A stretch of DNA of 64,000 nt from the NCBI GenBank assembly GCA_903813345.2, contig CAIIXF020000006.1:28093936-28157935 (forward strand), given 5' to 3'. Shown piece after piece: positions 1 through 47,334 of this stretch (the stretch's first letter is position 1; each line of letters begins with the position of its first letter). The stretch comes from Owenia fusiformis (Eukaryota > Annelida > Polychaeta > Sabellida > Oweniidae). Made by a program: the position numbers and the translations under genes. The notes under the pieces are model-generated. The model did no database searches, was not told where the DNA came from, and worked only from the letters and a program-made list of their open reading frames with translations.

Positions 1-3000
1 TTGTCTGCTTGCAGTTGTTGGTTTTCTGATTTTAGATCATGCAGCTGTTGACTGCCTACTGGACCAAGAGACTGGAGGCTAGTGGGATCTATGGGAAAAA
101 CAGAAATAATCACCATCACCATGAGGCAGAACTAACTTTTTTAGGAATAAAAAAAATACAAGAAAAAATAAAGCTTACTGCAAGAAAAAGTTAAGCTAGC
201 AATAAGCTTTGTAATATAAGTGCTATTGTGGTTGATTATAAAAGTTACTCGTCTGCAATATTACAGACCAAAGATATTTGTCCCACATTTGATTCCTTGA
301 ATTTGATAATCAGGTGATTTGCAGGAAAAAATGAAGGTACATGTATTTAGAAAATATTCCAAAACCAGCACATCTAATTCATTCAACTCAATTCAAAAGT
401 GTAAATTCCAAAAAATGGTGAATGGTGTAAAATTTGTATAAAGTATACCAGTTGTATAAAATGTGAAATGTTGCATGCTAATAATGACTGAAAGAAACAT
501 CCAAAAATATTGTGAAGAGTGAGTGATTTTTCTGTAACCATTCCTCCTGGCTATGCAGAATCTGAACCATTCCTTTTCTTTATAAGCTAAACATCTCAGC
601 ACAACATTATTCTTTCTTACACATGCTTTGATGTATGTAGAATAAAACACATGTACATACCACCACTATTAGTTGCTGACAGGGCCTCTTGTATTATACC
701 AGACTCATCTTTTATACCCTCAGGGTCCTGGAACAGTAAATGAGGTCTATTATCAATACTAAATAAATATAAATATTTATAGCGTTTTCATAGTTATGAA
801 AATTCAAAAGTGTATGATACAACCAATCCAGATTAATAAACGTCTGAAACATTGAATAATGTCAGATCAAGGGAGAAAATTAAAACTGCTAGGAGATATG
901 GACCTGCAACCAAAGTCAAAACCATTTAATTCAGAAAATTCAAATGAAAATAATTGCAGTTTAGTTCTCAATGAAAAATAAAAAAGGAGATTCTAGAAAA
1001 CTGAGAATAATTTTTGGAAATTTTTTCTTATCAATCTTGAGGAGGTGAGGGAAACGATGGCCAATTTGGCTGAAATTTTTTGTGGAGTCCCTTGTAATCA
1101 GAGATCATATGATACCAAGAGCAGCTTGATCAGAAAATATTTTCTAAAAATGGAACACCGTTCCCTCTTCAACTCTATCCAATTATTTAACCTATTCACT
1201 ACCCAGAGGTTCAAGATTTCTCGTCACCTTGGAAACGACTTTGAAACCCAGAGTGACAAGAAAATCTGTCCCAACATTTTTCACTGAAATTGCTCTAATT
1301 TTGACAATTTTCATCCAATTTACACCAAAAATGTTTTAAAATGTGTAGAAATGATCTCTGTCGACTAATTTCACTAAATTGAGCATCACTTGTTGTATAT
1401 GCATGTAGTAAAATGTCAAAGGCTGGCAAAAATGAATAATTCCCTGGTTTCAACCCAATTTTAGAACCTGGGAATCAAGAGGTTAACTCTCTTTTTAACT
1501 TGAACCATCAAATCCAGAGATACCAAAGAAATATCCTTAAGGGACATTTTTCCTTGTTTTAGCTTATTGTAAAACCTTCTATTACGTCAAACTATGGAAT
1601 ACATGACATGCTAAGTTTTATCCTTCATGGACATTTTTTCTTGCTAAATCTAATGTCAAACCTTATCTATTACTTTCCACGTCAAACCATTTTTCAATCC
1701 AAATCTATCAACCTACTCAAAAGCTAAGGTCTAAATAAGATATGAGACTCAATGAATTTTTTACCTGCTTAGCTTTATCCTGCATGGCTGCCACCATTCC
1801 CTGTATGGCTTTATAACACTTCAGCACCTCCTCTTTCTTCTCTTTGTTTTCTCTCTCAAGTTCTTTAACACGCTCTTTCCTCTTCTGTAATGTAACAATG
1901 AAAAAAATCTCTGTAGCTAATTACCCCTCATAAATTTTTTTAGATAGATAAGATGAATTACTTATTCTCAGTGTGTTACTGAGCATTATAATAATATATA
2001 GGCCAAATATCACATGTTTCAGGAGTCAGAGGCATAGCCAGCAAATATCAAGGAGGGGGTGCGATCTTTTGGGTATGCATCACTGCGAGCGAAGCAAGGC
2101 CAAAAAAGGTGTGTAGTGTTCACCCATCGCACCCCCTGGGTACGCCCATGAGAGTTTAATAAGAATGTAAGAGATCATTTGTTCACAACACCATTTTCTT
2201 TCCATAAAGAATGTGTTATTGAGCACAAAATATCTTATTCTATAACTTAAAGTATAACTAAAGTATAACTACCTTATCCTTTTCTTTTCTTTCATCTAGC
2301 TTTTTCTGTAAATAGAATACATAGCATAAATCTTATGAGACTAATAAGTACATCAGTATAAGATGGCTCAGGAGTCAATATACTGGGAATCTGACATTTC
2401 TCTTTCTAGTCTGCATGGAATATTATATTGTGTATTAAGAATTGAAAAAAATCATTATCTTTAAAAATATGAGTAAAGAGACTGGACACACCAAATCAGT
2501 TATTTAAGTTGACATATAAAAAATATTTACTTCTTGCTCAACAGCGTTTATTTTAAACTTTTTCGAGTTTCTGAGAAACTTACCATTGTATCATCAGTCT
2601 GAGCTGGAGCGCTTCTATATTGCACATCTGATTTTTTCCATTTCTGAAAACGATGCCAAACAATTTGAATGTAAGATATGTTCTACATATACTTAAGACA
2701 ATGCTGACAAATAACTTTAACAGAACGCAAGGCAATAGGAAATAATGGAAAAATAATTGAACTTTTAAACAACAAGGGACACCCATTATTACTATTGCAC
2801 CTAAAAATAATTTTCTTGAAATATTTCATAAAATTAAAAAATGACATCCTAAGAATTTACCCAGCCTACCCCAAAACTAAGGAATTATCTCTGACCATTT
2901 CAAATCTGGAAAAATGCAGACAAGAGTAGTGAGATACAGAGACCCAACACCAAGCTAACGAGAATATTGAGCTTAGTGTCTTTTTAAGGTACAATAAAAA

Positions 3001-6000
3001 TATCTCACCTTTAACTCAACATCTTTTTCCCCAAGAGTAAGCTGCAGAAGTCCTAGCTGGGACTCTAGTTCCTGTATGTGAGCAGAGGACTCTTGTAACT
3101 GGGTCTGCAGATCCTGACATGCTGTTTCATACTGCTGCACCTAATAATGATTAACAGAGTGATACCAAAAATGAGACCATTTTGAAATTTCAATCTCGAA
3201 AGGAAACAACAAAACCAAACAAGGCATTACGGTGCAAAAAGTCACCACCTACCATTTGTTAGATACTACATACTCTGGATCCTGACATCTGAACACCATC
3301 CATAAAAACATCAGTGACCACAACAATGTCACCACTTCTGGTGGTGACATAATAACTCAAGCATTATAGAGGCTCACATAATTGTATCAACATGTATTCT
3401 ATCAGCATCACAACAATGTTGATTAACTACCTGATTCTCCATGGCTTTCTGCTCTTCAATGTGTTCCATCAATTGTTCTCGAGCAGTCTCAAGCTCAGAG
3501 TCAGATCCAGCCTGCTCAAGCAACTGTTCGATTTTAGCGTCCTTTGAGGTTATCACATGGTTGAGATCTTCAATAATTCTGAAAAATACCGGAAAAGTTA
3601 TTTGATTAGATTGAAACCACCAAGTGCTAATTTCATTAAAATTGATGTAATAAAACCAAAGCATTAACATGCAAAATGTAACCACCTGCCATTTGTTACA
3701 GAAATCAATTAATTGGTTCTATGAGTTTTTATGGGAACTAGATGTGTTTATAGGTTGTTTAAATTTCTGTTGGTATGATTTATTTCTGTTAAGGGGAATT
3801 TCCTTTCTAACTTGAATGTAGGTCAGTGTATATGTGTGATAAGCATAATAAATATATAATAGGTATAATCAAACCTTATTTTTTCCATTAGGTCATGCTC
3901 AGCCTGAGCTAACGTGTTATCTGTTTGCTGCTCAGTTGCTAAGTGATTGTTGTTCGTTCCTAAGTGATCATTGTCTGATGTTTTTTGATTGTCCATGGTT
4001 GCTATGGCTTCATTAAGCTGTTGTTTCAACTGTTCGTTGTTATGTTCAAGAGATAATACTTTTTCTCTGGCACCCTCCAATTCCTGTTGACTCTCAGCAA
4101 TTTCCTTCAAAATTCCAATTGATAACTTTACTTTATAGCAAGTGCATATATTTTAGTCCATACTTCAGGTACCTTAAATAATGTGTTTGTTACAACCAGG
4201 GCAGGCCTGTAGCCAGGGTGAATTTATTTCAAACTTCAAGCAGTTTTTCACCATTCTGAGCACTTTTCTAATGATTTTGGGCCAAAAGCTGTCAAATGTG
4301 AACCCCCTGGAAATTTTTGAAAAGTGAAACCCCCTTGGCAAAAGTTGGCTAGGGGCCTTCAGGTTAAGCATAAGCTGTCAGACCACTCAACTGTGTTTCC
4401 TGGTTATACTCCATGTATGACCATGACCATGCATAGCTTGACCCTAAATATATATATTCAATATTTTTCATCTTTGAAAAAAATTATGGAAAATCTATTG
4501 CTTCACACTGGAATGTTAATTTAAATATGCTTGCTTTTCGAAACTTTCATACATTTTGTTGCTGATCCCTTTCCATTTGATTTGACAATATATCAACCTG
4601 AACATTAAAAAAAACATTACCTCTTCCATTAAGCGTAACTTCTCTTCCAGCTCACGGACGTCACGGTCTGCGCTAAAACTTGCATTTTGCGCCACCTGTT
4701 GGATTGCCTGGTCCATTTCTATTTGATGCTGGTCACTTATGGTTTCGAGAGCATGGCTAAAATATAATACAATAATACACAAGAATTATTATTCCTTAAT
4801 ATTTGTTGAATATTTAACCCACTGAATCCAGAATAGTTTTCATTTTCTTGCTTATTTTGCCTTTTGTTCAAATATGCAATATTTAATGTTCATTTTAATG
4901 ATATTAGTGAACATAGACCAATTACACATATTTTAATACATGTACATAATTATAGTAGTGTAAATTGAGCAAAATTTGTCAAGGCCATTTTAGTGAGAAA
5001 TTTTGTGACTGAAGTGGGGTTTCACTAGAATTTCTCATGACAGGGTAAATAAATGAAAACAACAGTCAAAATTAATGGAAATCATACATGGATTTAACAT
5101 GGAAAAGTTGAAAAGTCCCTAAAAACAACATGCCATTTTGCGAAAAACAACTGGTGAAAATCGCCTGTTGCCTGCTGCTAATGAAACCCCTGCTGATGTA
5201 TTGGTCACTATTCAAGTCAGGTGAATAAATTTCTTTCCAATTAATTGATTGTTGATCTGATAATACACCACACCAAGATGTATTCAATTTTTGGTTTTAA
5301 AAAATCATCATTTCACAATTTTATAATTTTCTTCACTTACGAGGCTTTCTTCAGCAGCTCCTGCTTATCTTGTAACTCTTTCTTCAAACTCTGGCATTCC
5401 ACATTTAGCTCAATGTTCTGAAACAGAAAAAGTGTGATTTTAGCTTTCAAAATATTAAGCAAAATGTGCTAATCATACAGTGGCAAGTTGACCTTCCTAT
5501 TTCACAATCAGCTAATTATCTTACTTCCCTTCACATTAGCAAAGTTCTAAACTTAATAACTACTAATTAGATCATGACACAATATCATCATAATTACCAG
5601 TATAATAACATGTGAAAAATATCATGACAAAATAATGGAATCTAGGAAAAACACAAATACAGATATGAGTCAATATTTAGAGGATAAATGATAAAATAAA
5701 ATAATAGCCAAAAACATACAGTTTTGACAACATCATCTCCATCATGGAAGCGTTGCTGCATTTTCTCCTCCAGATAGTAAATCCTCAATTTCAGACTGAA
5801 GTTTTCCTTCTTCAATTCCGCAATTTGCTGAAATTCACAAGATTCAAAAAGTTTTTGTAAAATCACACAATGTTGTAATGTTGTAAGCATTCATCATTTA
5901 TGGTCCATGGGCAATTCTCAAAATTATCCCAATGAGCATCAAACTAACAAGGAATCCGCAGTGATAAATATCGCACTTTTCATCCAAAAATTCAGAATGG

Positions 6001-9000
6001 CTGCTTAGTAATTTACCAAGCATGCCCAAAACCCAATCAGATCTTGACATCAGTCTGCCCTTGTCAATTTGTAATTTCTTGAAATTTTGATGATTCAAGA
6101 GTCATGTGGCACCCTAAGACCCATCAAGACAACAACAATAAAGCACTCTCAGATGAAATGCAATTAAAGACCAATACCTGATCATATTCTTTCATGGTGC
6201 GGGCTCGTATAGGTGACATCCTCCCACTGCTAGTCTTCGCCACCACTGCAATCAGAAAATCTTAACATTTACACAGGAGAATCAATCAGTTTCTTAAGAG
6301 GTAAAACTTACTTGTTTGTGGTTGAATATGATCACTCTACTATACCTTGCATTTGGTGTTGATAAGCAACCCATTTGGCTTATTAGTAATGATTATGCAT
6401 TTGCTTTTATTTGTCTGTTCCTTATTAATGGTTTATCGGTTGAATGTCAGATGTTACTAAGGCACTTTCAAAAATATACTAGACAATACAATTAGACAAA
6501 CAAAGTATCTTATGCATTTCTATGTGTTAGGTATAGTCGCTTTCCGATAAATTGTACCACCTTTTGATACATCATTGGCTAGCTTGATGATGTCATATGT
6601 TGATGATATCATAGGTTGATGATGTCATAGGTTGTATTCTTTAAATTAGCAAGAAGTCAATCCTTTATTTGTATGGTCAGATTTCTACCTCCATACAACC
6701 AATGACATCATCAATTCAGCCAAGATATCATAGTCTTTCTAATATATCAAAAGGTGGCAGTATTTATCGGAATGATCTATCCAGTGTTGTTTTTGTTTAT
6801 TTTTAACATATCTAGCAGTATAAGTGTAGCATTGTAGTAACAATGAGTAATATGTCAAAATCTTAAACCATTCCTATTATATTGGTGAACCTGATATCTG
6901 ATATCAACTTCCTTATAATACACACCATACATTCTGATACTCATAGCATCTTTCTGTTTCACTTAGGGGTGAGATTTGAGATGTCATGGTTTATCATGAT
7001 GCACACCATACATTATTTTTGATATTCATAGATTTGTATGTTGAATTAGCTATCATTCGGGAATTCCTGGCTGTCAGCTGACGATTTGACCGCGCGCTAT
7101 TTTATGTCCAACTCATTCAAATATGAATATGAATCAATAGTAGCCGGTAATATCCTTATTGATATGAGTTGGACATAAAGGAGCAGTCAAATCGTCAGTT
7201 GACAGCTGACAGTTGAATTCACTAATGTGACCTTAGTCTCTTACTTGGTACTGATCCGTCTGGATGCTCCATTCTGTGGCCAAGTGATTCTAACTGGGGG
7301 CCTAAAGTCACTTCTCCCAGTTGTTCAGGGTTCATACTGCAACACACAATCAAGTACCTAATTATAGCAGAGGTACCCTGAATCCATGTCAGTGAGTCAC
7401 ACTTCCCTCTTACATAACGGATGATTTTACAGTTCGAATGATGATCTGAACTTACTGTACTCAAATGTAGTTTACATGGACTATTGTATAAGTTTTACAA
7501 TGGGAAGTTAATCTCAGCTGCTTATACAGTCAGTGTCATGATTTTTGATTACTAATTCTGACTGAATCAAAGAATTATGTCTAAAGTCAAGATGGAGTCA
7601 AGCTCTAGGAAAGGAATACAACCTCTAGGTCCATCACAAGCTGAAAATGTTAGTTTATTTTAATCATAATTTGTGATCGTTTACTGGCAAAATTCTTAGT
7701 TCATCAATTTTCAATCAATTTAAATTTGATTAAATGTACTGCATAAATCAATGTTTGGGAATCTTTGTGAACACTGAGAAAAATAAAAATTAAAAAGAAA
7801 TGAAAATTCATGCTTACTGTTAAAGCACTTGCTATATTTGTGTGATTCACATCTTCGAAATGCCAACTGTAGTTATTACAACATTATAATGAAGAAAACT
7901 CGATGAGAACATTCTGTTGCAAAATCAATACCATCGTAGTATTAAATTTAACTGATATTGTTTTTGTTTCAATGCATACAGTTGATTATCACAACACATG
8001 TGTGATTCCCTAGATTAGAAATAAATTAAATCATAAAATAGAGCTTCTGAAGAGCTGATTTTAAATATCAATATTTTTCTTACTAGAAAGTTATTTGCTT
8101 GGATTACACCAAAATACTTAAAATTCAGAATATGTAACTTTTCCAATCAACATATTTTTGACCTGCTTCTGTAATTATTGAGTTAAGATCATTATGAAAT
8201 ATTAAAAAAATGTGAGTTTAGTTGGTATCAGAATTATAGACTCTGTCCGAGTCCGTTTATGAAGGACAGGACTCCTCCTTTCCCCTCTTGATTAAACTGT
8301 ATCAGATAATGTGGTAATAAATTGCCACCTCTTTTCAATGTTTAAAATATCATTGGTAGATTAAATAAGTACGAGGCAAAATGTCACAGATACCAACCGC
8401 CTCCACAAAAAAGTTGAAGACTATAACAATATGTCATCATTTGTAGTGGTGACATAAAAATGACAAAATCAGAAATAAAACAAAATAAAAAATAAATTAC
8501 TTCTAAGAAAATGTCTCAAAAAATATGACCTTCTTTCTGTTATTTACCTACACCATTTCCCAACCATAGTATGATCATTGATCAATTTATGCATTAGTGA
8601 TATAATGATATATTCTTCATATTTCATTTTCAGTACTTAAATAATATTTCATATTTACAATGAATGGTGTTTTAGTAGGAAGATTTTTCAAATATGTAAA
8701 GGCGCTTACTAATATCAAGAATTGTGAGTTGTCATGGGAATTGTAATTACATGTAATAGAGATTGATAAACTCCAAAATTAAAACATGACTACTTCATAG
8801 TAAATTCTTGGAAACAGTGCACATCGTCTGTGATGTCAGCCACATTACTCCATCAACAACTCAAACAAACCTCCAATTGTGTACGGCAGAAAGATCATTT
8901 CTGGAACCATACCAGGAATCAATAACCCAGATGCGAGTAGAAATAATCTTGATTTACGTCATTAAAAATTCAAAATTCAGTCAAACTAATATCATATTTG

Positions 9001-10898
9001 AAATCTACATGTAAAATTACATCTAGAAATGTGGTTTTAAAAAGTGTTTATCAACTTTTAAAAATTAATTTTCTTTGAAAATGTGACTTCTAGCTCGGGG
9101 AGATTCCCCATAGATCCCATGCTATAAAAGCACAAAAAATGAAGTATCTTTTTTTTTAGTGAACAGATAATATTTTGCTTTACTGGACATATTTTCATTA
9201 GTATAAGTATCAGACGCATAAGGGTTATATGAAAATTGAGCCACTTAAATTGATAATATTCAAGTTTAAGTGAACTTTCTCATATACCTGCCATGTTAAT
9301 TAACCCGAATCAGCCACCAGGTGGTGAAACAGGTAACTACCTACTCGCATTTGGGTAATTGAGTCTGGACATCAGTGTCAGTGAGTATGTCCCTTTATGT
9401 CTTTTTGTGCCTCAGTCGAGTTAAGTCGACATGCTTATATATATATATGTATTTCAGTAATCATTTAAGTGCTTACGGAGAAAGCCAACAAAAGTATGTA
9501 TATATTTAGGTATTTTTCAACTTACTCTCAAATACATCTAAATATAATTTTTGGAAATGATGTATTCTCTGAATACACAGAGAGATCATTTCTGGAACCA
9601 TACCAGGAATCAATTGAGTCTGGACATCATTGAGTATGTCCCTTTATGTCTTTTTGTGCCTCAGTCGAGTTAAGTCAACATGCTTATATACGGTATATGT
9701 ATTTAAGTAATTATTTAAGTGATTAGGGAGAAAGCCAACAAAAGTACGTATATTTTGAGGTATTTATCAACTTACTCTCAAATACATCTATGCTAAATAC
9801 AATTTTTGGAAATTTAGAGTCTTATCCTGCAGTAGGAGAGATACATCGAACGTTTGAAGTTATTTCATCATGGGGTTACTTCGACCAAGGGGTTATTTTT
9901 AACTATGGCCGACATTTCACATTTCAGAGATCCACCATCTTGGATTTAGATCTCGCCATTGGAGATTTCCATTTATTTTCAAAGTTTCCAAAAACAAACA
10001 TGGCAAAATGTGTGAATTTAAATACATGTATAAGTCAATGCCAAAATCCCATGGTCAAAATAGCCCCATTACGAAGTAACCCCATAGGACGAAGTACGAC
10101 GTACCTCCCCTATCATTTAAGACACAGACCAACAGGACTAAAATCTGTAAGAGGTCTTTGTTTTGATATGACTTAGGTAATGACTGTAATGTTTCTTTAT
10201 GCTATATCATTCTGTGAAAGAACGAGAGGAGTAGAATTAAGTTGTTTTGCTGAGTGTGTTGCTTTTTTGATAGTTCTAGCTTACTGAACACAGCTGCCTC
10301 ACTTCTGTCAGCTCGGTAGAGTAAGTTCTAGCCTATAGTTGGGGACATAAATAAATGACAGGTGGATTTGCTGAAGTGAGGATTTCCCATGTTAAAAATA
10401 AGAGAATTTACAAGAGGCCATACATCAGTGGATGAGATTATACAAAATGTAAAATATACAAATTTTAAGGGATATATATCTAGACAATATTGGTAATTAT
10501 GGGCTTTCAGACCACCATAATTAGGAAATGGTGATCGAAAATCGACCTGTCATTTATTTTTGTCCCCAACTGTATAACAACTTCAAAATGAGTTCTGCTG
10601 AAGTTCAAAGGGGTCAAATTATTACTCCACAGTCTATTGAAGATCGGGCAGATCCCCCAAAAGCTCTTATCCTTCCTAGAAAAACTGAAAGCTAAGATTT
10701 CTTCCTGATTATCAATAGGTCTCTGCACTGAAGGTTTGCAGAATTTTTTTTGAAAAATAAAAAACAAATGAAAATCTATTTTGAAACTGCATGATTGCCT
10801 CCATTTGATGATGATTAAACATTAGTAAGAGAATTACTGACATACCTCCCCTCGAACTCAATGGGTAGTGTTGGATCATCTCCTACAAGGGAGTCCAT
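1..10898 (-). CDS. CDK5RAP2: CDK5RAP2/myomegalin/centrosomin-like protein, 5' part (14 exons, partial)
   Basis: Large coiled-coil centrosomal scaffold. In the family the N-terminal CM1 domain binds and activates gamma-tubulin ring complexes at centrosomes and Golgi. Exons (minus, transcript order): 10846-10898, 7245-7336, 6178-6245, 5720-5827, 5341-5417, 4621-4756, 3875-4104, 3431-3578, 3009-3140, 2584-2643, 2273-2305, 1765-1884, 661-727 and 1-88 (runs off the edge). Phases join at every junction and give about 470 residues. The start is the ATG at 10898, whose exon ends in a good gtatgt donor. CM1 spans about residues 57-133, with the recognisable core KKENFSLKLRIYYLEEKMQ. Everything after it is Gln/Glu/Lys-rich heptad coiled coil. 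The acceptor of 3875-4104 is an AAG with a weak pyrimidine tract, so that boundary may be off by a few codons. Small exons could be missing. Invertebrates usually have one gene for the vertebrate pair CDK5RAP2 and PDE4DIP, so the symbol stands for both. Confidence 0.9.
2033..2152. repeat. Small G-rich/C-rich inverted repeat in a CDK5RAP2-like intron
   Basis: A GGCATAGCCAGC-type left end and a GGGTACGCCCATG right end flank GGGGGTGCGATC and its complement. It resembles the repeat at 58634-58885. Confidence 0.5.
3238..3352. repeat. GTCACCACC-family MITE copy
   Basis: Starts with gtcaccacctaccatttgtt and ends ggtggtgacataa. Its inverted termini and internal accatccataaaaacat phrase recur in the copies at 8389-8458, 17685-17779, 44348-44472 and 49609-49712. 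Confidence 0.7.
4203..4361. repeat. Degenerate copy of the CAGGCCCGTAGCCAGG element
   Basis: Lies in the CDK5RAP2-like intron between exons 4621-4756 and 3875-4104. It shares its ends and internal phrases (tttttcaccattctgagcac, gtgaaccccctgg) with the intact copy at 32724-32929, and its terminal repeats have drifted. Confidence 0.7.
5341..5417 (-). CDS. CDK5RAP2: CM1 exon c
   Basis: Begins NIELNVECQSLKKELQDK, which continues CM1 in the same register as in vertebrate proteins. It has a gtttcag acceptor and gtaagt donor and ends with two bases of a split Ser codon. Confidence 0.88.
5720..5827 (-). CDS. CDK5RAP2: CM1 exon b (core of the gamma-TuRC activating motif)
   Basis: 36 codons, phase 0 on both sides, with a tttcag acceptor and gtatgt donor. 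It encodes QIAELKKENFSLKLRIYYLE and on to VVKT. The Lys-Glu-Asn-Phe and Leu-Arg-Ile-Tyr residues are the most conserved part of CM1 from fly centrosomin to human CDK5RAP2. Confidence 0.93.
6178..6245 (-). CDS. CDK5RAP2: CM1 exon a (start of the CM1 motif)
   Basis: Completes a split ATG codon and encodes residues 50-71, including SPIRARTMKEYDQ, the family's Ser-Pro-x-Arg-Ala-Arg lead-in to CM1. It is flanked by a ttgcag acceptor and gtattg donor and ends at phase 0. Confidence 0.88.
6542..6772. mobile_element. MITE with about 26-bp terminal inverted repeats
   Basis: Left end TTCCGATAAATTGTACCACC and right end the inverse, with few mismatches (ggtggcagtatttatcggaa). The interior holds several gatgatgtcatagg-type repeats. 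No coding capacity. It sits in the intron upstream of the CM1 exons. Confidence 0.75.
7061..7220. mobile_element. Short inverted-repeat element (foldback MITE)
   Basis: Both ends read GAATTC followed by a CTGTCAGCTGACGATTTGAC-like arm and, further in, TTATGTCCAACTCAT or its complement. The element is about 160 bp. It ends 24 bp from the splice donor of CDK5RAP2-like exon 7245-7336. Confidence 0.75.
8890..9815. repeat. Tandem duplication; one copy is split by an insertion
   Basis: A roughly 235-bp segment (agatcatttctggaaccata through aatttttggaaat) occurs at 9585-9815. It also occurs, interrupted by the 433-bp element, at 8890-9565. The homologous right parts are offset by 250 bp with about 90% identity by eye. 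Confidence 0.8.
8924..9356. mobile_element. 433-bp insertion with AAT target duplication and a preserved empty site nearby
   Basis: The termini are ACCCAGATGCGAGTAG and its inverse CTACTCGCATTTGGGT. AAT precedes (8921-8923) and follows (9357-9359). The uninterrupted flanks, ccaggaatcaattgagtctg, occur at about 9605-9624 in a tandem duplicate, so this copy is the filled site. A TAA duplication in the PIF/Harbinger style is the alternative reading. Confidence 0.75.
10335..10573. mobile_element. MITE with about 28-bp terminal inverted repeats
   Basis: Left ATAGTTGGGGACATAAATAA is matched inversely by the right end ttatttttgtccccaactgt. The element is about 239 bp without coding capacity, in the first intron of the CDK5RAP2-like gene. 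Confidence 0.75.
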
Positions 10899-10973
10899 TT
10901 CGCCATATATTTGACTTCTTTTGAATAAGATTCAAATTTTTATTTTCCAAATTTCCGCCATGTTTACTGGATT

Positions 10974-10985
10974 CACGCATGCGCA
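10974..10985. promoter_or_regulatory. Candidate NRF-1 site upstream of the CDK5RAP2-like start
   Basis: cacgcatgcgca reads TGCGCATGCGTG on the other strand, 11 of 12 matches to the palindromic NRF-1 consensus. It lies 76 bp upstream of the presumed ATG, in a locally GC-richer patch. The position suits a TATA-less promoter; binding is inferred. Confidence 0.45.
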
Positions 10986-12879: not shown

Positions 12880-13150
12880 AGTCCTAAAATCTTGTTTGTC
12901 GAGGCTTATATACAGGTTTTCAACCAAACCGTTTTGTGGAGTCATCTTAAAAATTTCTTACCATTTTAGCTGTCAGAAATTGCCATGAAAGTATGCCAGG
13001 CATAAATATGCTCATATATTTCTATCACACCCTTGAGTGCTATATTGTAATCAGTTTGCTGGGCAGGCAGGCAAACTGAATAGTTTTTGGGCAGTCTGGG
13101 TATATATTAGGGTGGCCATTTTGAATTTTCCATCACAAAATCTGTATTCT
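12880..13150. repeat. Decayed copy of the 162-bp-unit element
   Basis: Contains caggttttcaaccaaaccg and gtggccattttgaattttcc, diverged versions of the unit repeated at 42143-43386. Confidence 0.5.
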
Positions 13151-13287
13151 ATTCAAGGCTCTGATTATGATCATTCTGTGTCTTGTTTTTACATGAAATT
13201 TGTTATTACAATAATATGCCAGGTCAGAAACAATACAGGTAAAATTAATGTCTGTTAAATAATTTATTCCTGAGTTATAAGGGCTAT

Positions 13288-13518
13288 CAGGGCTCTCACC
13301 AGGAAATATTAAGGGTGTGGTGCTAACATCTTTAGAACAACCGTTCAATCGTGATAAATCATATTTATGTTATCTTTTATCCTTTTTACATGCTATTATT
13401 ATTATATATCCAGTCAAGTTTAGGCTGTGGAAACAGTCATGATTTGCCAATAGGGTGTGGAAGGAGCTAAATAGAGTGTGGTGCTGCGCCACAGTCTAAA
13501 CGCATGGGGAGAGCCCTG
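13288..13518. mobile_element. Short MITE with CAGGGCTCTC termini
   Basis: Left CAGGGCTCTCACC and right GGGGAGAGCCCTG are inverted. The interior carries gggtgtgg repeats. About 231 bp, non-coding, roughly 275 bp upstream of the presumed Rab14 5' splice acceptor. Confidence 0.65.
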
Positions 13519-13814: not shown

Positions 13815-18478
<4,664 letters not shown>

Positions 18479-20855: not shown

Positions 20856-20861
20856 AATAAA
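20856..20861 (+). terminator. Candidate poly(A) signal for Rab14
   Basis: AATAAA followed by T/G-rich sequence, about 2.4 kb after the stop. A nearer AATAAA exists at about 18645, so alternative 3' ends are possible. Confidence 0.35.
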
Positions 20862-35900: not shown

Positions 35901-38900
35901 TATCGGTGGATATAGCTCGCTAACTTTCCCATTGACTTCCATACAAATGCTTCGCTAGGTATGTAATACTGTCCCATATAGCATTTTCCATCAAAATTAC
36001 AGACAGGAAGTCACTGTCTTGTATTTAAGGATCAAAATTAATCACCTCAGAGAGCTCAATGCAAAAAACAAGTTCCTTTCGGTTTCGGAAATTCAGAAGG
36101 AAAATTTGTACAATGTTCTTCATAAGAAAAAATCATAATTTTATAAAAAAAGGATTTAATTATTAGCCCTGTTTACATTTGAGATGGATTTTCACATCTC
36201 TAATGTGTTCTATTTTATTGTATTTTAATAATGGACTGCTTTGTTGACTAAACTGCAACTGGTTTGTAGGGTTTGCCATTTTATTGTATTATATGTTGGA
36301 CTGCTTTGTTGACTAAACTGCAACTGGGTTGATGGGCTTGGCATTTTATTGTAATATATGTTGGACTGCTTTGTTGACTAAACTGCAACTGGGTTGATGG
36401 GCTTGACATTGTATTGTATTATATGTTGGACTGCTTTGTTGACTAAACTGCAACTGGGTTGATGGGCTTGACATTGTATTGTATTATATGTTGGACTGCT
36501 TTGTTGACTAAACTGCAACTGGGTTGATGGGCTTGACATTGTATTGTATTATATGTTGGACTGCTTTTTTGACTAAACTGCAACTGGGTTGATGGGCTTG
36601 GCATTTTATTGTAATATATGTTGGACTGCTTTGTTGACTAAACTGCAACTGGGTTGATGGGCTTGACATTTTATTGTAATATATGTTGGACTGCTTTGTT
36701 GACTAAACTGCAACTGGGTTGATGGGCTTGGCATTTTATTGTAATGTATGTTGGACTGATTTGTTGACTAAACTGCAACTGGGTTGATGGGCTTGGCATT
36801 TTATTGTAATATATGTTGGACTGCTTTGTTGACTAAACTGCAACTGGGTTGATGGGCTTGCCATTTTATTGTATTATATGTTGGACTGCTTTGTTGACTA
36901 AACTGCAACTGGGTTGATGGGCTTGACATTGTATTATATTATATGTTGGACTGCTTTGTTGACTTAACTGCAACTGGTTTGTAGGGCTTGCCATTTTATT
37001 GTAATGTATGTTGGACTGATTTGTTGACTAAACTGCAACTGGGTTGATGGGCTTGACATTGTATTGTATTATATGTTGGACTGCTTTGTTGACTAAACTG
37101 CAACTGGTTTGTAGGGTTTGCCATTTTATTGTAATATATGTTGGACTGCTTTGTTGACTAAACTGCAACTGGTTTGTAGGGTTTGCCATTTTATTGTAAT
37201 ATATGTTGGACTGCTTTGATGACTAAACTGCAACTGGGTTGATAGGCTTGGCACATTTTGATTTTGAGATGTTGCTTGGGGCTGTTGATATGACTTGAAA
37301 GTATGATAAATCAACATATCAAAAAAACTATCAAGGATCAGTTTTTACTGGTTTATTTCATTACCATAATTAAAAGTTGGTTTCAAGTGTTGTTTTTAAT
37401 TGGTGTTTTCCTTCAATATTCCCATTTGAGTATTCCCATAAAAGAGTTCTGTAAAATATTCTGTTCAAGCTGTGATAGAGCACTCATGTTTCACGCAGTA
37501 TTTAAATACATTCTAAAGCCCCATGTAAACATTTTAAATTTCTCATTTCTTAGCTTTGAAATACTGTATTAAAACCAGAATGGTTTTTGAAGCGCGTGTC
37601 AAATGTACACGTATACTTGTATGATATTATGTTTAAATCATTTAAATTTGTATTAGAGTCTATTAGCAATGACACATACTTATGACCTCGTAATATATAA
37701 CATAAACACATGTAAATGTCAACAAAAATCTGAATGAGCAAATCACAGAGCAGTTTATTTTAAGGGTATATAAGGGTAAGGGCTATGAAAAAACTTGTTG
37801 ATAGGATTTTTGTTTGATGACTGGGTATTTCAGGGTCATCTACGAGATCCAATTATTTTTGGCAGAGATCTCTTAATCTTACAGTTGGGTATGATAAGAA
37901 TATATAACAAACATAGTCGCATTCCGGAAAACTGAATAAATCCTGGCAGCTTTGAAATTTTAAACCTGTCCACTAGGCTATATTTAATTGATTGTCTAGT
38001 TTTTCAGGCCAAATATTATTTTAAAATCATGCATTTTCCACCATTCTGAACACTTAAAAGTGATTTTGGGCCAAAGTTATAAATTATGAACCCCCTAGAT
38101 TTTTTTTAAAAAGTATTAAAAACCCCTCTTTGCTAAATCTGGCCAGGGCTTGTATACCTTTTCAGCTTGAGGTACTCTACATTTGGAAAAAAGTGATTTT
38201 TGGCCGAAGTTGTCAAACCCCCTAGATTTAAAAAAAAAGTCAACCCCTCTTTGCTAAATCTGGCCAGGGCTTGTACCTCATTTCAGCTTGAGGTACTCTA
38301 CATTTGGAAATATGTTTTCTACATCATTCTCATTCTGTATAAACTGAACTCCATCCTACATCCCATCAATATACAAATACAAATGTACATGGATTTTAAG
38401 TTAAGATGTGAACACCTGTCTATTTTATACACTAGTTATTCTCAAAGAAAAAGACCATATTGATTTATTTTCATCTTTACACCTGTTGCTAATAGACTAT
38501 TATATGATAAGTTTTACTTCAATTAGTGACATCGCCTGTTTTCAACATGTTTGGTGCTCGTAAAATTTACAATTATGATAAAAATTAAACCTTAAACACT
38601 TATGGCCTGAGATTGCAGAGTAGAATAGTTATAATTTGAATATTAAAGTTGATGATTTGTATTTTGTTCTTTCCTTAGGACAGTTTTCTAGTACTCGTAC
38701 ATGGCTATTGTCGAGATATATTTGCCTTCTGTTGAAACTATATTTTAAACTGACCATTAAAAGGTGAATACTGAACACTCATTAAAGGTGAACACTTACA
38801 GATCGTGTTGAATAAGTCCTTACACTGAAATTTATTTCAAAGCCTGGGTATAGGGGCAGGAAAGAAATGGCCCTATCATATTGTTATTGTTATACAGTAT

Positions 38901-41900
38901 TCCAACTGTTATACAGCAATCCAACTGTTATACAGCAATCCAACTGTTATACAGCAATCCAACTGTTATACAGCAATCCAACTGTTATACAGTATTCCAA
39001 CTGTTATACAGCAATCCAACTGTTATACAGGCATCAAAAAAAGAAATTTAAAGAAGAACTGAATACAATAACGCAAATACATTTGCCTGAATATGTACAT
39101 ATGAACATCAAAGGATTTAACATTTTCCTGGGGCTTGTTCACCAAATATGAAAATGAAAACATTATCATAATACTATTCTTAAGGGTATGACAGTCCTTC
39201 ATATTTTAAACTTGTGAACTTTTTAGCTAAGGTAAACTAATCTAACATGCAAATATGTAAGAATTTAATCCTTTGAATATCTTGAATTGCCCAAATCATT
39301 CTATATTTTAGTCCCTTTTGTTTCAATGTGTAGTTTTGAGAGACTTTGAGATGTTTGGTTGATATGGCACAAGTATGTTGTCAGTATATTCAAAGTTGAT
39401 TTTTATGAATTTTAATAAAAACAAGATTGTAATTCTTTATGTGAACATGAATTGAAGAAAACTAATAAACTCTAAAAAATATTGAAGTCACTTTTTGGAA
39501 AATAATCAAGATCACATAATTGAATTTCCAAGAACCTCTATTGCAATATTTATTAGCAATATCATTAAAGTTTAGATATATCAAGTTGATAATAACATTT
39601 TCAACAGATGAGCCCGAGATAACGAAATTATGATCTTCATTTCTCTCTTTTCAGCAGAGTAAATGTCAGTTCAATGAAACAGAGAGGCTCTACACATACC
39701 CTGATGAAGGATTCCTTCTACGCCATCTTGACATTACACCTGACTGGGAGCTGGAGAAAAACAACAAGAACCTGTGCAAGAACAACAAGGACGATGATGA
39801 TGATGAGGATGAGGTGAAACCTGCAAAGGTTGGCCCACTTGCACCAAAAGATGTTGATATCGTGGATGCTAGTGCATCAGTTTCTGCTCTTAAGTCAACC
39901 CCAGGGATTGGAGCCAGTAGTAAAGGTGAGACAGGCTGGGGGCCAATAAAATCAGGCACGGGGGGTGAGATAGGAGATTTTTTTGTATCAGCTTTCACTT
40001 TCAAGTCAACCCTGAAGATATGAAGGCAGAAATATAAGGTAAACTGGAGGCATTCATGAACAGGCATATTCTGGTTTCGAGAGATGATCACATTCTGTCC
40101 AAGTCAGATTTCAGGTTGACCTCATTTAATGATACCTTTAAGGCCCATGTTAAAGTCCTTTCATTGTCATGTATTTTTATTGCCAGAATAAACATTTAAC
40201 AATACAAGTGATATAAAACATAACATAAGAGAATTTGTTCCCATGAAGCGAAAACAAATCACGATGAATAAAAGTCTTGCCAGTGTTTTCTTAAAATTAA
40301 TCCCTATTTTTGGCAACTTTTTTTATTGGCCCATGTGACATTGACTGTACTTTAAAATAATGTCTGTAATTAGATTAAAAATGTTTCCTTCCTCATCCTA
40401 TGAGTGAAATGAACTTATAGGATGAACACTGAATGCCATAGTATATTAGGTACGAAATACATATTTATGTTAAGTAGCAAACCAAGATTATTGGTATGGG
40501 TAATTTCCTCCAAAATTTTTGAGCTCTTACAGTTGTGTTGATAGGAAACCTTTTATTTCCAATATATTTCCCCTGAAATATTTCTACTTTTAGTTAATTC
40601 AAAAATGATGAAAACAGACTTTCAATACATATTTTGAATCATTGCATGGGCCAGAAATCATCTTACATCTGAGCACTATCTACCATATACATGTACCCTT
40701 TACTAGAAGAGAAATAGACATTCATTTGGGCTAAGAATACAGGGGAATTACTCCCAGGTTGATTTGCGGCATAGGAGGGGGTTGAAACGGCAAGGGATAC
40801 AGCTAAGACTAGAGATGATCATCCTCTGAATACAGGCTCCAGAACTCATTCTCATTTCTCCAAGAAGAAGGAAGGAATGTAGCAGGTGATGTCTGGAGTC
40901 TTGTATTTGGAGGATGGGAGATGATACAATGAATGAATATCTTTTATGATTGTGTCAATAATTCAACATACTTTTGTACTTAAAGTGTTATCTTGGTATT
41001 GTACTATACAATGACATAGATTGTTGTGAAGTGGATGATCTGAATGAATGTTTCCCACATATGCCACAAAAGCCATCATTAATCAATTTATTAAACATAC
41101 GTTTCAGATTAAGCACTTCCTAAGGCACTTATCCAAAGTTATCAACAGTTAATCACTACATATTCTGTTTGTATATCATAGCTAGTTTATCATTGTGGTA
41201 TTTAATCTTGCCTTTAACATCTCTGTCTATCTTGACATTTTTTATCGCACTTTCAAAAAGTGGTACTGGTATATTGTCGTCTTGGGCTGCTTGGGCTGCT
41301 GGGGAGCCCCACATAAATCATAATTAACAGCGAAACCTGCTTTTCTGTTCAACTTGAAATGTTTATAGATGTACATGTAATGGTAGACTAGTGTCAAGAT
41401 CTGAAATGGTTTTGCACTGGCAGATCCAGGGCATGGGGCCTGCCCCCCCCCCCTTGGGTAGGCCCAGATTTTGGGGCCCAAACATTTTGTAGGACCTCAA
41501 TTAGTGGGCCTTTTTAGGCATTATTTATAGATTTTCAAAATTTGGGCCTAACTTTGGTATTTAGGGACCAAAAATTTGTTTCCACATAAGCGTGGAATTT
41601 TTTCTGACAACCACCCTCCCATTATCTACTTCACTAACACAACACACTAGAGGGGGGGGTGCTCGCAAGGGCTCGTAGCTAGACTAGCTCATCAAAGTGC
41701 AATATTTGTCTTTGTGTCTTGTTTATTTATCCTGACATCTGGAATACTGGTGACAAGAATGTTCTGATGTATATCAAAATGTACCTAAATGATAGTCTGA
41801 CAATAGTAAACACTCAAAGTTCAACAAAGTATGGAGTTATTGATTATTGATTTTTATTATTTCTCTTGCATTTTTCTGAATGACATTGGTTTCCTCATAG

Positions 41901-44900
41901 AATCGAAGCACTGCAACCAGGTGCTGCTCCTTAGGAATTTGAATTCTCCTTGTACCAAATCTAAAATCAGTTGGCGAGAGTTTCAAAATTGTGTTGAAAA
42001 TCTGGTATTTTTAGACTTACACCTTCTCATTTGGACTCACTTTAAAGTAGCAAAAATCAAGGAAAGGAGAAACTTTGTTCAGAATTTCAAAAATAAGATT
42101 TTGTACCAATTGCCAAAAAATTACACAAAAATCTGGTTTTATTATGTCCCCACCACATAGTGTGGGGCCATATTGTCGGCCTAGGCGCGTCCGTCCGTCC
42201 GTCTGTCTGTCTGTTTGTCTGTCTGATCTGATTAGGTTTTGGACCTGTTAGCTCAGTCATGACAGCCATTTTGAATGTCTTAAGAAAAGTTAGCGTGCGA
42301 TAATACTTTGTATCATATTGAATGGTGTTTTTGAGTTTTCATACTTAGACTATTTAGTAGCTTTATAAAAAATTTCAGGTGTACTTTATTGTAAAAGCCT
42401 ATGTTATTGTTAACAGTAGTAATATGTGCTAATTTTGTAAAAAGAAATCAGCAAAAACTTATAATCACTTTTTTATTGTCGGCCATTTTGGATTTTTCCA
42501 TCCTAAAATCTCGTCTGTAAAGTCTTGTCTATGCGTTTTCAGGCGAACCATTTGGTAGATCATTTCCAAATTTTCAGGGATGTTTCTTAGTATGAAAATC
42601 TAGATCTGATTAGTTTTTTGGCATTCTGGGTAAATGTCAAGGCAGCCATTTTGGATTTTCCGTCCTAAAATCTTGTCTGTGAAGTCTTGTCTATGCATTT
42701 CCAGGTGAAGCGTTTGGTAGATCAATTTCAAATTTTCAGGGATGATTCTTAGTATGAAAATCTAGATAAGTTTTTTGGCATTCTGGGTAAATGTAAAGGC
42801 AGCCATTTTGGATTTTCCATCCTAAAATCTTGTCTGTAAAGTCTTGTCTACGCGTTTTCAGGTGAACCATTTGGTAGATCAATTTAAAATTTTCAGGGAT
42901 GATTCTTAGTATGAAAATCTAGATCTGATTAGTTTTTTGGCATTCTGGGTAAATGTCAAGGCAGCCATTTTGGATTTTCCATCCTAAAATCTTGTCTGTA
43001 AAGTCTTGTCTACGCGTTTTCAGGTGAAGGGTTTGGTAGATCAATTTCAAATTTTTAGGGATGATTCTTAGTATGAAAATCTAGATCTGATTAGTTTTTT
43101 GGCATTCTGGGTAAATGTCAAGGCAGCCATTTTGGATTTTCCGTGCTAAAATCTTGCCTGTAAAGTCTTGTCTACGTGTTTTCAGGTGAACTGTTTGGTA
43201 GATCAATTTCAAATTTTTAGGGATGATTCTTAGTATGAAAATCTAGAACTGACTAATTTTTTCGGCATTCTTGGTAAATTTAAAGGTGGCCATTTTGCAT
43301 TTTCCGTTCCAAAATTGTAGCAGTAAAGTCTTGTCTACTCATTTTCAGGATAACCATTAGATGGGATCACCCATTGGTGGGGACATATTGTACACATTTG
43401 TGTTCTTGTTTTTCATATATTGAGGTTTCTTTGGAGATTTCCTTTTTATCTCATACTTGTTTTACTGAAATGTATTGCAACTTCATTTGCAGTCTCTTTG
43501 CACAATTTTAGCTGATAAAACATTGATCGATAGTAGAGATGAAATGTACATTACAAAGATCAAGTCATAAACCACTCGACAGCGTTGACCAAACCCAAAT
43601 ATATAAATCAGAAATAAACTGGACATGTACAACTTCATGGTTTTCTTATTGACTTAACATATATTACAATTTTCTCTCAAGGTTTTACACACATTTTTGG
43701 CCTTTTGTATTTGTATGAACTTAAATGTTAATGTTTTTATCAACATTTAAACAATTAACTCATTTCGTGCAAAGTTCAAAAACAAAATAGTTTCAAAAGG
43801 AAATGAAAAAATCACGATATTTGTCTAAAGATAAGGCACATGCTCGTTGGCTTATAAGGCTAACTAGCTAAGCTATCAATTTTCTTAGAAGATACATATT
43901 TCTGAGGTCAAATTCAAAAAATATTTGCAAATGATTTACTCAATATGTTTATATACGAGAGTTGTTCATAAAGTTCTCAAAATATTTCTTTATTTTTATT
44001 ATATTCTAATGAAATTTTTAGTTATGAGTAAACAATGACTTATTAATCCAACAAAAAATATTAGGTAGGCTACAGTGAATAACACTAATGTTTTAATCTA
44101 TTAGAACATATAGAAAAATAAAAAAAATAGAGAGATTTTATCAGAACTTTATAATCACCCCTCATATGATATGTATAGGTTCCAAATTTTACATGTGAAT
44201 GATTCATGGTGAATCTATGCCCAAAAAATAAAATATAAAGCAAAGATATATTTCTCAGGTGTTGTTTATAATGTTAATATCTGTTTAAAATATATGATAA
44301 CTCTGAAAATTAAATTCACTCACTGGTTTGCTGATTCTGGTTATAATGTCACCACAAAAAGTGGTGACATATTTGTTATAGTCTTCAACATTTTTATGGA
44401 CAGTGGTTGGTGGTCCACAGTTGGTGGTCAGCAGTCAGTGTCTGTAAAAAATGGCAGGTGGTGATATTTTGGATGTTAATACCTTGTATATAATATTGTT
44501 CTCCCAATATTAAAAAATAATACCTCAAAATCTAATAATGACTGATTTGACTCAGTCAGTGACATTTAATATGAACATAACTGCTGGCAATATATTAATA
44601 AAAAACTCATGACCTAATATGTATTGTATTTAATAAAACTAGGTTAAAAGGGTTTAGGGTTGACTTTTAAGGAGGTGCCCTAGTATCATAAAAAACAGAG
44701 AACATGCAACATTCATTCAATGTTTAAGTAAAATACTGAATAGTGTTCTAGAAATTCATAAGGTACATGTATAAAACAGTTAAAATGAAATTCCATTTTC
44801 AATTTGACATCTTTAAACCTTGTAAGTTAGTTCAGGAAACTGGTCCCACGTTTCAAGTATCATGCTTAATAATAGAATTCAACGTGCTCTTTTTTCAATC

Positions 44901-47334
44901 TGAGAAGAGTTGTGAAGGAGGAAGTAACCTGACATGCTTTGTAGTCAATATAAAAATATGAAATAAACCTCTATGAAATACACAATATAACTCTTCAGTA
45001 GGACTTGTGTATAACATTTTATGCTGGGGTATAACCATTTTATTCTGGGGTATAACCATTTTATTTCCAAGAGGAAATTGACTGATGTTTACATACAGAA
45101 TTGCTAGAGTATGATTTATAAGGTTTTATGATTTAACAATCTGTTTTTCAAAATTTTGCATGTCTTTATGAAAAACATTGTTCATTTCATAATGTTGCTA
45201 AGTTGCTATTTAATGTCTCTCATCTTGCCTGTTCAGTTGTGCCATTTGTGTTTTTTGTGTTTTCTTCTTGTTAGATTTTATAAAAAGAAGCAAGACCCAT
45301 TACATAAAAGCAGCGACCAAAACCTCCTTGATCTGTTTTTCAAACACACTTACATTTGACATTTTACTCTGAGAGTCATGTGATCTGCCATTCTGATAAA
45401 TCTGGTTCTTGTAACATCTTTCTGTATCACCAGAAAGATTCTCATGCATGGCTTAGGAGAAAATGAGATGTCATTGTTTATCATGATGTTCAAACTTGTA
45501 TACAAAGATCTAGCGCTGGGAATACAGAAAAGACCAAGACACGCTTTACTTCACTAAGCAACATGCCAATTGCAACTATCTCAAGTCTTCTTATTTTCCA
45601 ATTTTAATATGGGGCCAGATTATGTAACTTTTGAGTGGAAACATATCTCAGAGCATTATCTCATCTTGCTTCATCAAGCTTCGGACCTATTGTCACCTTG
45701 ATTCACGACAAATTATTGGTTATACACTAAATAAACAAACCCCAGCTGATGCGCTGTCTTGATGGCATTATCTAGCAAAGTTTCAAACTTTATGGTGATA
45801 GGTAAACCAACCACCATATGCCATGTTGGCTTTCTCAGGTAGCTCTTGTACAAGCACCTGTTGATAATACCACTGGCAGATCCAGAAGCCAACAAGGGGG
45901 GGGGCAGTGGAAAAGTTTTTGGGCCTCTAAAACCAAAAGTTAGGCCCAAATTTTGAACATTTAAGGCTTATTTTTTGGTAATAGGCCCAAAAAGGCCAAG
46001 TTATGGCCAAAAAGGCCCATTTTTGAGGCCCTACAAAATTTTTGTTTGGGGCCCTGTAAAATCTTCTGGGGCCACACCATGCCCCCCCCCCAACTCCCCT
46101 GGATCCGTCAGTGAATGCTCTTTTATTGAGTCCAAGTTCATTGCATATAAGGTGGAAACATTTTCTAGAACATAATCTGGCAGCCTTTGAAGTTAACTAC
46201 CTCGTATTTCTGATAAAAAGTCATCAACGATATGCCCAGCACTGTTAAGCTATGTGAGCTGAACTTTTTCAAGATGGTATGATGTAAGTTTTCTAGGTGG
46301 GAACATTCCCCAGAACAGATGTAACTAAGTGTGAAGCCAAGCTTCCTAAACATGCTGACATCATAATCTCTGACATTTCGTTTCTTCCCGTATAATTATT
46401 GCTCATGACCTTTCAGCCAGTACTTGTCTATTAGGGCCATCAAGAAATGCAGATTCATATTTTGTCATTATTTAGAATACTGATCCCGCACATAACATAG
46501 CCCATATTAGTGGTCATTTTCCCTTCATGATATTAGTATGGCGATAATCAGACTCAGGGAAATGTTTCTGTTGTGGAAGTTCATTGAGTCAAGACAACCC
46601 AGTGAGGTCACAAGCCATGAAATCTAACTCTTCTGGAATTTTGTTGTTTATATCTCACCATAAATAGACATCCAAGCTGGAATAAAGATGTTCTTGTATT
46701 TTCTGTATAATTAGATTCTGAGACCTGTTGCTACATATTTAAACCAACCCCCCCCCCCTCCCCAATATTTACATACTGCCACTGTTTTATAAAATAAGTT
46801 TTGAGAGGGGCAGACTGCTGTTGAAGTGGTAAACAGTAGAAATTGACATTTAGATGTTTTATCTTTGTTGTTGCCAGTTACTAGGGTATCATGTAATAGA
46901 GAACCATACTGGGTTATTTTGTTGCCCATTAATCTTTTTCATGGTAGTCAATGTTTTGCTGATTTTGATTTGGCACAAATATTGTTTTTTGTTTTTAATC
47001 AATATTTGTTGTATTCAGTATAAAGCTGTGCCTTTTATTGACATTGTTTATAAATCCAAGGTTAATTCATTTTTACAATTAGTTATTCAATAAATGTTAT
47101 GTATTCTCAAAGCTAACTTAATTTGCATCTTGTGTATTTGTAGGAGATCTGTCGAACTATCGCTCAAAGTTCCAACAAGAATTCGAATTTGGGAAACGGG
47201 AAGAAGAGGAGGAGCCAAAAATTGTTCACAGACCTGAACCCACCCCTGACCCAGAGGATGTCACGGTGAAGCCATCTGAAGAGGACGAAAACTTTGCATG
47301 GTCAGATTCTGCGACATCAGACATGTTATTTTAG
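27825..47334 (+). CDS. PPP1R18: Phostensin/taperin-family protein (complete, 3 exons)
   Basis: Actin-associated, protein-phosphatase-1-binding family. Exons 27825-29903, 39655-39925 and 47144-47334 join in phase to 846 aa. Residues 1-50 carry the phostensin N-terminal signature: IPQWKQALLERRRRQDEE, then MPAWKRDLILKRKG. Other features: PGFVHKLLGKFIALS (about 205-220), Glu-rich stretches, a proline run in KKRRAPPPPNPIKPWEKE (about 380-397) and a repeated VTNIDDV (about 640-665). Exon 2 opens with SKCQFNETERLYTYPDEG, where K-C-Q-F is an RVxF-type PP1 docking site followed by the YPxE box seen in phostensin and taperin. Exon 3 gives GDLSNYRSKFQQEFEFG and an acidic tail. The vertebrate pair PPP1R18 and TPRN share these parts; the two-block N-terminus favours PPP1R18. 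Confidence 0.85.
30091..30436. repeat. Long foldback repeat (about 345 bp)
   Basis: The left arm catattgacactttatgggc...cagctacagtcaaaacag...tttgtgagtactttgaattt is mirrored by the right arm ending at the complement of the start. The arms are about 140 bp around an AT-rich loop (tattattattatttatt). Confidence 0.85.
32724..32929. mobile_element. 206-bp MITE with CAGGCCCGTAGCCAGG termini
   Basis: The 16-bp terminal inverted repeats are perfect and CCATG flanks both sides (32719-32723 and 32930-32934), a likely 5-bp target duplication. The interior is rich in G and C runs. Related, decayed copies lie at 4203-4361 and 38020-38300. Confidence 0.8.
33871..34283. mobile_element. Inverted-repeat element (about 413 bp)
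   Basis: The left end gctgttcttttttactccct and, further in, aaggaggattggctcccag are both mirrored at the right (ctgggagccaatcctcctt and gggagtaaaatagaacagc). The left arm carries an extra ~45 bp. Minus-strand open frames here are by-products. Confidence 0.7.
34396..34554. repeat. Near-perfect 159-bp hairpin
   Basis: The left arm GGAATAAATAATGATAGGCC continues through ttcaatatggtgaaattcag and cgttggacagaatgtt. The right arm is its inverse, ending with tatcattatttattcc. Confidence 0.9.
35659..35770. repeat. Foldback repeat (112 bp)
   Basis: GTTATGTCACTATGACGTGA plus aatatgcc is mirrored by ggcatatttcacgtcatagt plus gacataac. The loop includes imperfect pairs (ctcccaatata and tatatttggg). Confidence 0.85.
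36197..37255. repeat. 65-bp minisatellite, 16 copies, exact spacing
   Basis: GGACTGCTTTGTTGACTAAA starts at 36233 and then every 65 bp to 37208 without a single indel (two units have GGACTGAT, one has TTTTTT). Units differ at a few fixed positions: GGTTTGTAGGGTTTGCC against GGGTTGATGGGCTTGRC, and GTATTGTATT against TTATTGTAAT. A partial unit precedes the array. Located in phostensin-like intron 1. Confidence 0.97.
38020..38300. repeat. Decayed CAGGCCCGTAGCC-element with an internal tandem duplication
   Basis: ccaccattctgaacactt and the gaaccccctag phrase match the interior of 32724-32929. About 115 bp (ccccctagat through gaggtactctacatttggaa) then occurs twice in a row. Confidence 0.7.
38886..39035. 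repeat. 19-bp tandem repeat, about 8 copies
   Basis: The unit is CTGTTATACAGCAATCCAA, with a CAGTATTCCAA variant in two copies. The plus-strand open frame through it is an artefact of the repeat. Confidence 0.95.
39655..39925 (+). CDS. PPP1R18: Phostensin-like exon 2 (PP1-docking exon, NAGNAG acceptor)
   Basis: The acceptor reads ttttcagcag, so splicing can begin at CAG or three bases later, adding or omitting a Gln just before SKCQF. The exon carries the candidate PP1 site and TYPDEGFLLRHLDITPDWEL, then an Asn/Lys/Asp-rich linker with an acidic run (DDDDDEDE), ending G|gtgag. Confidence 0.88.
40818..40920. mobile_element. 100-bp MITE, copy 1
   Basis: The inverted ends CATCCTCTGAATACAGGCTCC and ggagtcttgtatttggaggatg surround an agaagaaggaaggaatgtag centre. 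A second copy lies at 51182-51290. Confidence 0.75.
41415..41530. repeat. Partial copy of the CACTGGCAGATCCAG element
   Basis: Begins CACTGGCAGATCCAGGGCAT and continues into a C run and ggcccagattttggggccc, as in the complete element at 45871-46113. No right terminus is seen. Confidence 0.6.
42143..43386. mobile_element. 1.24-kb TATGTCCCCACCA element with internal 162-bp tandem units
   Basis: The ends TATGTCCCCACCA and TGGTGGGGACATA are inverted. After a GTCC/GTCT microsatellite (42188-42226) come about five clear 157-162-bp units. Each contains ggcattctgggtaaatgt (42621, 42778, 42940, 43102, 43264), gcagccattttggattttcc and ggtagatcaatttcaaat. No protein is encoded. Confidence 0.85.
44348..44472. 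repeat. GTCACCACC-family MITE copy
   Basis: taatgtcaccacaaaaagtg ... atggcaggtggtgatatttt, with the family's internal gttatagtcttcaacattttt segment. Confidence 0.7.
45010..45068. repeat. 21-bp repeat, 3 copies
   Basis: TATAACCATTTTATTCTGGGG occurs nearly three times at 21-bp spacing. Confidence 0.8.
45871..46113. mobile_element. CACTGGCAGATCCAG inverted-repeat element (243 bp)
   Basis: Left CACTGGCAGATCCAG and right CTGGATCCGTCAGTG are inverted with two mismatches. G and C runs flank the interior, which repeats aaaggccc phrases. Related to 41415-41530. Confidence 0.75.
47144..47334 (+). CDS. PPP1R18: Phostensin-like exon 3 (C-terminus)
   Basis: After a gtatttgtag acceptor it reads GDLSNYRSKFQQEFEFG and an acidic/proline tail, ending SATSDMLF and a TAG stop. 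The split Gly codon joins exon 2 in phase. Confidence 0.87.

Follow-up and report, generated by a model that had tools for sequence, protein, structure and literature searches.

Four adjacent genes of Owenia fusiformis whose human counterparts appear to lie on the MHC paralogon: a probable instance of conserved macrosynteny

Regions paralogous to the human MHC have been described at 6p21.3, 9q33-q34, 1q21-q25/1p11-p32 and 19p13.1-p13.4 (PMC1309616). A paper of 2023 argues for a proto-MHC, and gives rxr, notch, pbx, brd, psmb and C3-like as the framework families of the primordial complex (PMC10751288); of the brd framework family, BRD4 has been placed at 19p13.1 and BRD3 at 9q34.2 (PMC5133849). 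A reconstruction of 2021 treats the wider proto-MHC chromosome, in which NKC and LRC join the MHC, as an artefact, split over Pvc5, 11, 13, 14, 15, 17 and 18 (PMC8302630). Chordate linkage groups have been reported as intact in scallop, the order of their genes being scrambled (PMC7269912). A limited literature search found no report assigning the four genes described below to a linkage group or to the MHC paralogon, or treating them as ohnologues.

The window, that is, the whole stretch of 64,000 bases of Owenia fusiformis DNA that was analysed, has a G+C content of 31.4-36.2% in 4 kb steps and reads as animal DNA in character, as judged from the introns and the animal relatives of its genes. 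It contains at least six genes, four of which are relevant to the claim of paralogon membership. Their order from left to right is as follows.

1762-6234, minus strand: CM1 (Cnn_1N) gene of the CDK5RAP2/PDE4DIP type, from Pfam Cnn_1N and PDB CDK5RAP2; coding pieces 6178-6234, 5720-5833 (CM1), 5340-5414, 4621-4752, 3880-4110, 3431-3577, 3009-3131 and 1762-1884
13824-18478, plus strand: RAB14, seven coding pieces, stop codon at 18476-18478, from the PDB Rab14 chain and exon positions
23960-27109, minus strand: TEKTL1/CCDC105 tektin-like gene; pieces 26720-27109, 26346-26435, 25322-25660, 24526-24723 and 23960-24142
27825-29903, plus strand: first coding exon of the phostensin/taperin-like gene, which encodes PxWK motifs at residues 5 and 37 near the N-terminus; from the open reading frame, splice site and PPP1R18 alignment
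39658-39925 (or from 39655), plus strand: the same gene, coding exon 2, with KCQF in place of human KISF, from splice sites and alignment
47144-47334, plus strand: the same gene, last coding exon with the stop codon at 47332-47334; by itself it matches neither PPP1R18 nor TPRN significantly
56320-57454, minus strand: MFS transporter gene, C-terminal half; pieces 57308-57454, 56935-57066 and 56320-56736
62138-63289, plus strand: single-ORF 7tm_7 chemosensory (gustatory-like) receptor gene, Pfam 7tm_7 at 1.8e-8 (34.5 bits, cut-off 26.6)

The original prediction, that CM1, RAB14, TEKTL1 and phostensin-like genes are adjacent within 47 kb, was borne out by the Pfam and PDB searches together with exon mapping. 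The identities of the first three are secure from tool searches, and that of the phostensin/taperin-like gene is weaker. Scans of the window for tRNA genes and with Rfam gave no match. Three copies of a dispersed repeat that includes a GAACCCCC stretch lie at 4274-4334, 32842-32902 and 38062-38122; relative to the one taken as reference, the other two show 74% and 61% identity. An 81-base tandem array of about six copies (94% match) occupies 54517-55029.

The CM1 motif matched Pfam Cnn_1N at 9e-18, and the CM1 exon with the preceding exon matched PDB chains of CDK5RAP2, which we take to be human, over residues 50-128 (1e-22, 77 query residues; the query was short of a single residue, one Q at the exon junction). 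At the level of the sequence this match does not separate CDK5RAP2 from PDE4DIP. The first exon of the gene was not located. Since the visible coding pieces stop at 1762 without a stop codon, the gene probably extends beyond the left edge of the window. A C-terminal CM2 region is a feature of the CDK5RAP2/PDE4DIP family, and the 3' end of the present gene lies outside the window.

The product of the second gene is closest to Rab14, whose chain was matched in PDB at 1.1e-109 compared with 1.5e-75 for Rab4A, the best non-Rab14 chain (a V stood in the query for the splice-site-derived F before MADC, a single residue). In the product of the third, Pfam Tektin was found at 1.5e-26 (93.5 bits), and the PDB search gave four rows, namely the CCDC105 chain of entry 8snb, presumably from sea urchin, at 4.1e-128, two further chains of CCDC105 (5e-32 and 6.1e-30) and one tektin (0.012). 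By sequence, it is thus a member of the tektin family whose best match is CCDC105 and not a tektin, and the tektin-like assignment was upheld. The Pfam queries for the CM1, TEKTL1-like and MFS pieces, and the PDB and NCBIfam queries for the latter, may carry a few intronic residues at the piece ends. TEKTL1 stands head to head with the phostensin-like gene, the start codons being 715 bases apart (27110-27824). Mice without the tektin-like protein (TEKTL1/CCDC105) were fertile in one study (PMC11148293).

The three coding exons of the phostensin-like gene were joined in frame at GT-AG sites into a protein of 845 residues, which ends exactly where the original prediction had placed the end. Comparison was made with provisional sequences of human PPP1R18 and TPRN; each of them exceeds the cut-offs of both Pfam families by a wide margin, and the provisional PPP1R18 has the printed length of 613 residues (PMC3907856). 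The first 51 residues aligned with PPP1R18 from Met1 without a gap at a score of 133 (best of 1000 shuffles 59, 0/1000 as high), and a C-terminal core aligned at a score of 80 (best shuffle 46, again 0/1000), the two blocks lying in the same order in both proteins. When PPP1R18 was searched against the 2085 open reading frames of the window, exon 1 came first (4.1e-9), exon 2 second at an E value (0.074) that falls short of HMMER's inclusion threshold, and exon 3 reached E 28. With TPRN as the query, exons 1 and 2 were absent among the 21 matches listed and exon 3 had E 36; the N-terminal score against TPRN was equalled by 3 of 1000 shuffles, and that of the core (49) was barely above the best shuffle (46). 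Pfam Phostensin_N gave 19.8-22.5 bits over 16-18 residues, below its cut-off of 23, while Pfam Phostensin, which comprises the PP1-binding and SH3-binding region, was not matched even at E values up to 10, and a PDB search with the protein returned nothing meaningful. The phostensin-like assignment stood as far as the N-terminal block and core of PPP1R18 are concerned and failed to reach the level of the Pfam families. The pattern [RK]x(0,1)[VI]{P}[FW] for RVxF-type PP1 motifs found no match in the protein, and because KISF is replaced by KCQF at this place, PP1 binding should not be assumed from the sequence.

A taperin-type tail was considered for the last exon and dropped: a short GDLSNY block reached a score against the TPRN tail that 21 of 5000 shuffles also attained, but at another stretch near the TPRN end than expected, whereas 3136 of 5000 shuffles scored as high for the last 14 residues and 215 of 1000 for the last 70. 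The first intron of the gene holds a 65-base tandem array of 16 copies (93% match, 36212-37259), and the second intron a 162-base array of about five copies (42482-43358). At 30135-30363, two 98-base arms that are 94% complementary form an inverted repeat with a spacing of 33 bases.

Taperin, the product of a deafness gene (DFNB79; PMC12139522), has been described as similar to phostensin (PMC6317715, PMC12139522), one of these papers giving the similarity in two regions, with KISF as residues 624-627 of mouse TPRN. Like PPP1R18 (again in its provisional letters), the window protein has a pair of PxWK motifs near the N-terminus, at residues 5 and 37, a similar C-terminal core and an acidic stretch after it; it differs in having KCQF instead of the PP1-binding KISF and 845 instead of 613 residues. 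It shares with TPRN one PAWK motif and the C-terminal core; TPRN, however, has a single N-terminal motif and is the weaker match. Core identities were 30/51 between PPP1R18 and TPRN, 20/47 between the window protein and PPP1R18 and 15/47 between it and TPRN (provisional human letters). The human pair shows the greatest mutual similarity, which fits an origin of PPP1R18 and TPRN by a vertebrate-side duplication, although unequal rates could produce the same pattern. Of the suggestion that phostensin and taperin are ohnologues, the part that they are duplicates thus gained some support. The copy described here is the one seen in a 64 kb window, and others may exist elsewhere. The gene could serve as an outgroup for the phostensin/taperin pair.

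The two genes that follow contribute no recognised paralogon gene. In the MFS fragment, MFS_1 was found at 7.2e-5 (22.3 bits, under the cut-off of 33.4), PDB gave no match up to E 1 and NCBIfam only matches far under the cut-offs; the N-terminal half was not found by Pfam between 57300 and 62100. Six-frame Pfam scans covered 34,505 of the 64,000 bases (8250-13200, 18700-23650, 29930-34880, 39930-44880 and 47400-62100) and revealed no further gene at cut-off in these gaps and introns, the sub-cut-off rows ERGIC_N, ADDT, DNA_pol3_delta_C and DUF4819 being discarded as chance. In the remainder (1-8249, 13201-18699, 23651-29929, 34881-39929, 44881-47399 and 62101-64000) coverage was that of the named gene pieces. 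The Pfam scans, of which the six-frame part took in those 34,505 bases, showed no member of the rxr, notch, pbx, brd, psmb or C3-like framework families; such genes may lie outside the window.

In human, CDK5RAP2 and RAB14 are closely spaced at 9q33, PDE4DIP is at 1q21 and TPRN at 9q34. CDK5RAP2 and RAB14 appear together in one gene list for 9q31-q34 (PMC3335609), and both belong to the 18 genes that one study sequenced in homozygous regions, chromosome 9 included (PMC2928813). TEKTL1 variants 19-15020518 and 19-15023114 place that gene on chromosome 19 near 15.02 Mb (PMC10991756), phostensin lies between HLA-C and HLA-E, at 6p21.33 according to a reference title (PMC3907856), and taperin is C9orf75, likewise by a reference title (PMC12139522). 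The proposal that the human counterparts map to the MHC paralogon has partial printed support, namely for chromosome 9, 6p21.33 and chromosome 19 near 15.02 Mb, PDE4DIP at 1q21 and TPRN at 9q34 being placed from general background.

The neighbourhood of the four genes is probably explained by ordinary conserved macrosynteny. The four genes would descend from one bilaterian chromosome-scale linkage group, a membership deduced from coarse human positions; exchange between chromosomes being rare and inversions reshuffling genes within them, members of the group could become adjacent in any order. In vertebrates the group would have been multiplied by whole-genome duplication, and after differential loss RAB14 and TEKTL1 would remain as single genes, the CM1 and phostensin/taperin families as pairs over 9q, 6p, 19p and 1q. 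The four genes and their order are read directly in the window; membership of all four in one group, the single state of RAB14 and TEKTL1 in vertebrates and the origin of the pairs by whole-genome duplication are our inferences. That the four share one ancestral linkage group is plausible and would be nothing special, since amphioxus and scallop have kept such groups; most likely the finding exemplifies a known phenomenon. There was no sign in this analysis of compactness or immune function as a binding force. A rough null with 17 linkage groups, whose sizes and retention were assumed and which is a guide only, gave a chance of 2.0e-4 to 3.2e-4 that four genes of a scrambled genome fall in one group; the chance of four out of four was 0.26-0.68 with a per-gene group retention of 0.7-0.9, 0.08 at 0.5 and 0.014 at 0.3. 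At a retention of 0.5 or less, and with the assumed sizes, the result would be unusual even under macrosynteny.

The main competitor, which we consider unlikely while giving it appreciable weight, is chance adjacency combined with coarse cytoband matching: large human bands would be mosaics of several ancestral chromosomes and carry little signal of ancestry. It is favoured by the reconstruction that distributes the wider proto-MHC chromosome among seven proto-vertebrate chromosomes (PMC8302630), since a chromosome that is a mosaic of ancestral ones makes shared cytobands weak evidence. Against macrosynteny it also counts that the informative genes are few (four) and that a match becomes likelier by chance when a paralogue on whichever arm is accepted. 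Against chance adjacency stand the roughly 2e-4 to 3e-4 expected for a scrambled genome (assumed sizes) and the occurrence of CDK5RAP2 and RAB14 in one human interval (PMC3335609). The weaker identity of the phostensin-like gene opens another doubt, that it is no homologue of phostensin/taperin and the set is really of three genes. The sub-cut-off Pfam score, the absent Phostensin domain and RVxF motif and the failure of the TPRN query to list exons 1 and 2 among its 21 matches would agree with this, but the ungapped N-terminal block and the separate core, co-linear with the provisional PPP1R18 and each unmatched in 1000 shuffles, make it very improbable, as do the PxWK motifs at the same two residues as in PPP1R18, since just 20 of 20000 shuffles hold two anywhere.

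The idea, envisaged in part by the original prediction, that selection or shared regulation has held a compact proto-MHC block together since a time before the vertebrate duplications found no support and is equally hard to credit. Four genes lie in 47 kb, and the 715 bases between the head-to-head start codons of TEKTL1 and the phostensin-like gene would leave room for a shared promoter; yet the scanned parts yielded no framework family, the linkage-group literature describes a largely scrambled gene order at such depth (PMC7269912), one reconstruction calls the wider proto-MHC chromosome an artefact (PMC8302630), the human counterparts are scattered across several chromosomes and the two genes beyond add nothing to the block. 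Somewhat less remote, though still improbable, is a pre-duplication micro-block of a proto-MHC chromosome, in which CDK5RAP2-RAB14 would be an ancient pair persisting at human 9q33 and the phostensin-like gene of a single ancestral PPP1R18/TPRN type, its PP1 motif unacquired or lost.

Conserved macrosynteny remains the preferred explanation. If the linkage is confirmed, TEKTL1 and phostensin/taperin, two little-studied families, become usable for tracing one ancestral chromosome; the four-gene linkage alone leaves the picture of the origin of the MHC unchanged. Compared with the MHC paralogon and the proto-MHC of amphioxus (PMC10751288, PMC5133849), the locus is similar in that the human counterparts of its genes appear to lie on chromosome 9, 6p, chromosome 19 and 1q, and dissimilar in that the scanned parts of the window hold no framework family. 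With respect to the chordate and bilaterian ancestral linkage groups (PMC7269912), the present view is of one 64 kb window with genes placed by coarse human positions only; the likeness would be that genes of one group stay on one chromosome while their order is shuffled.
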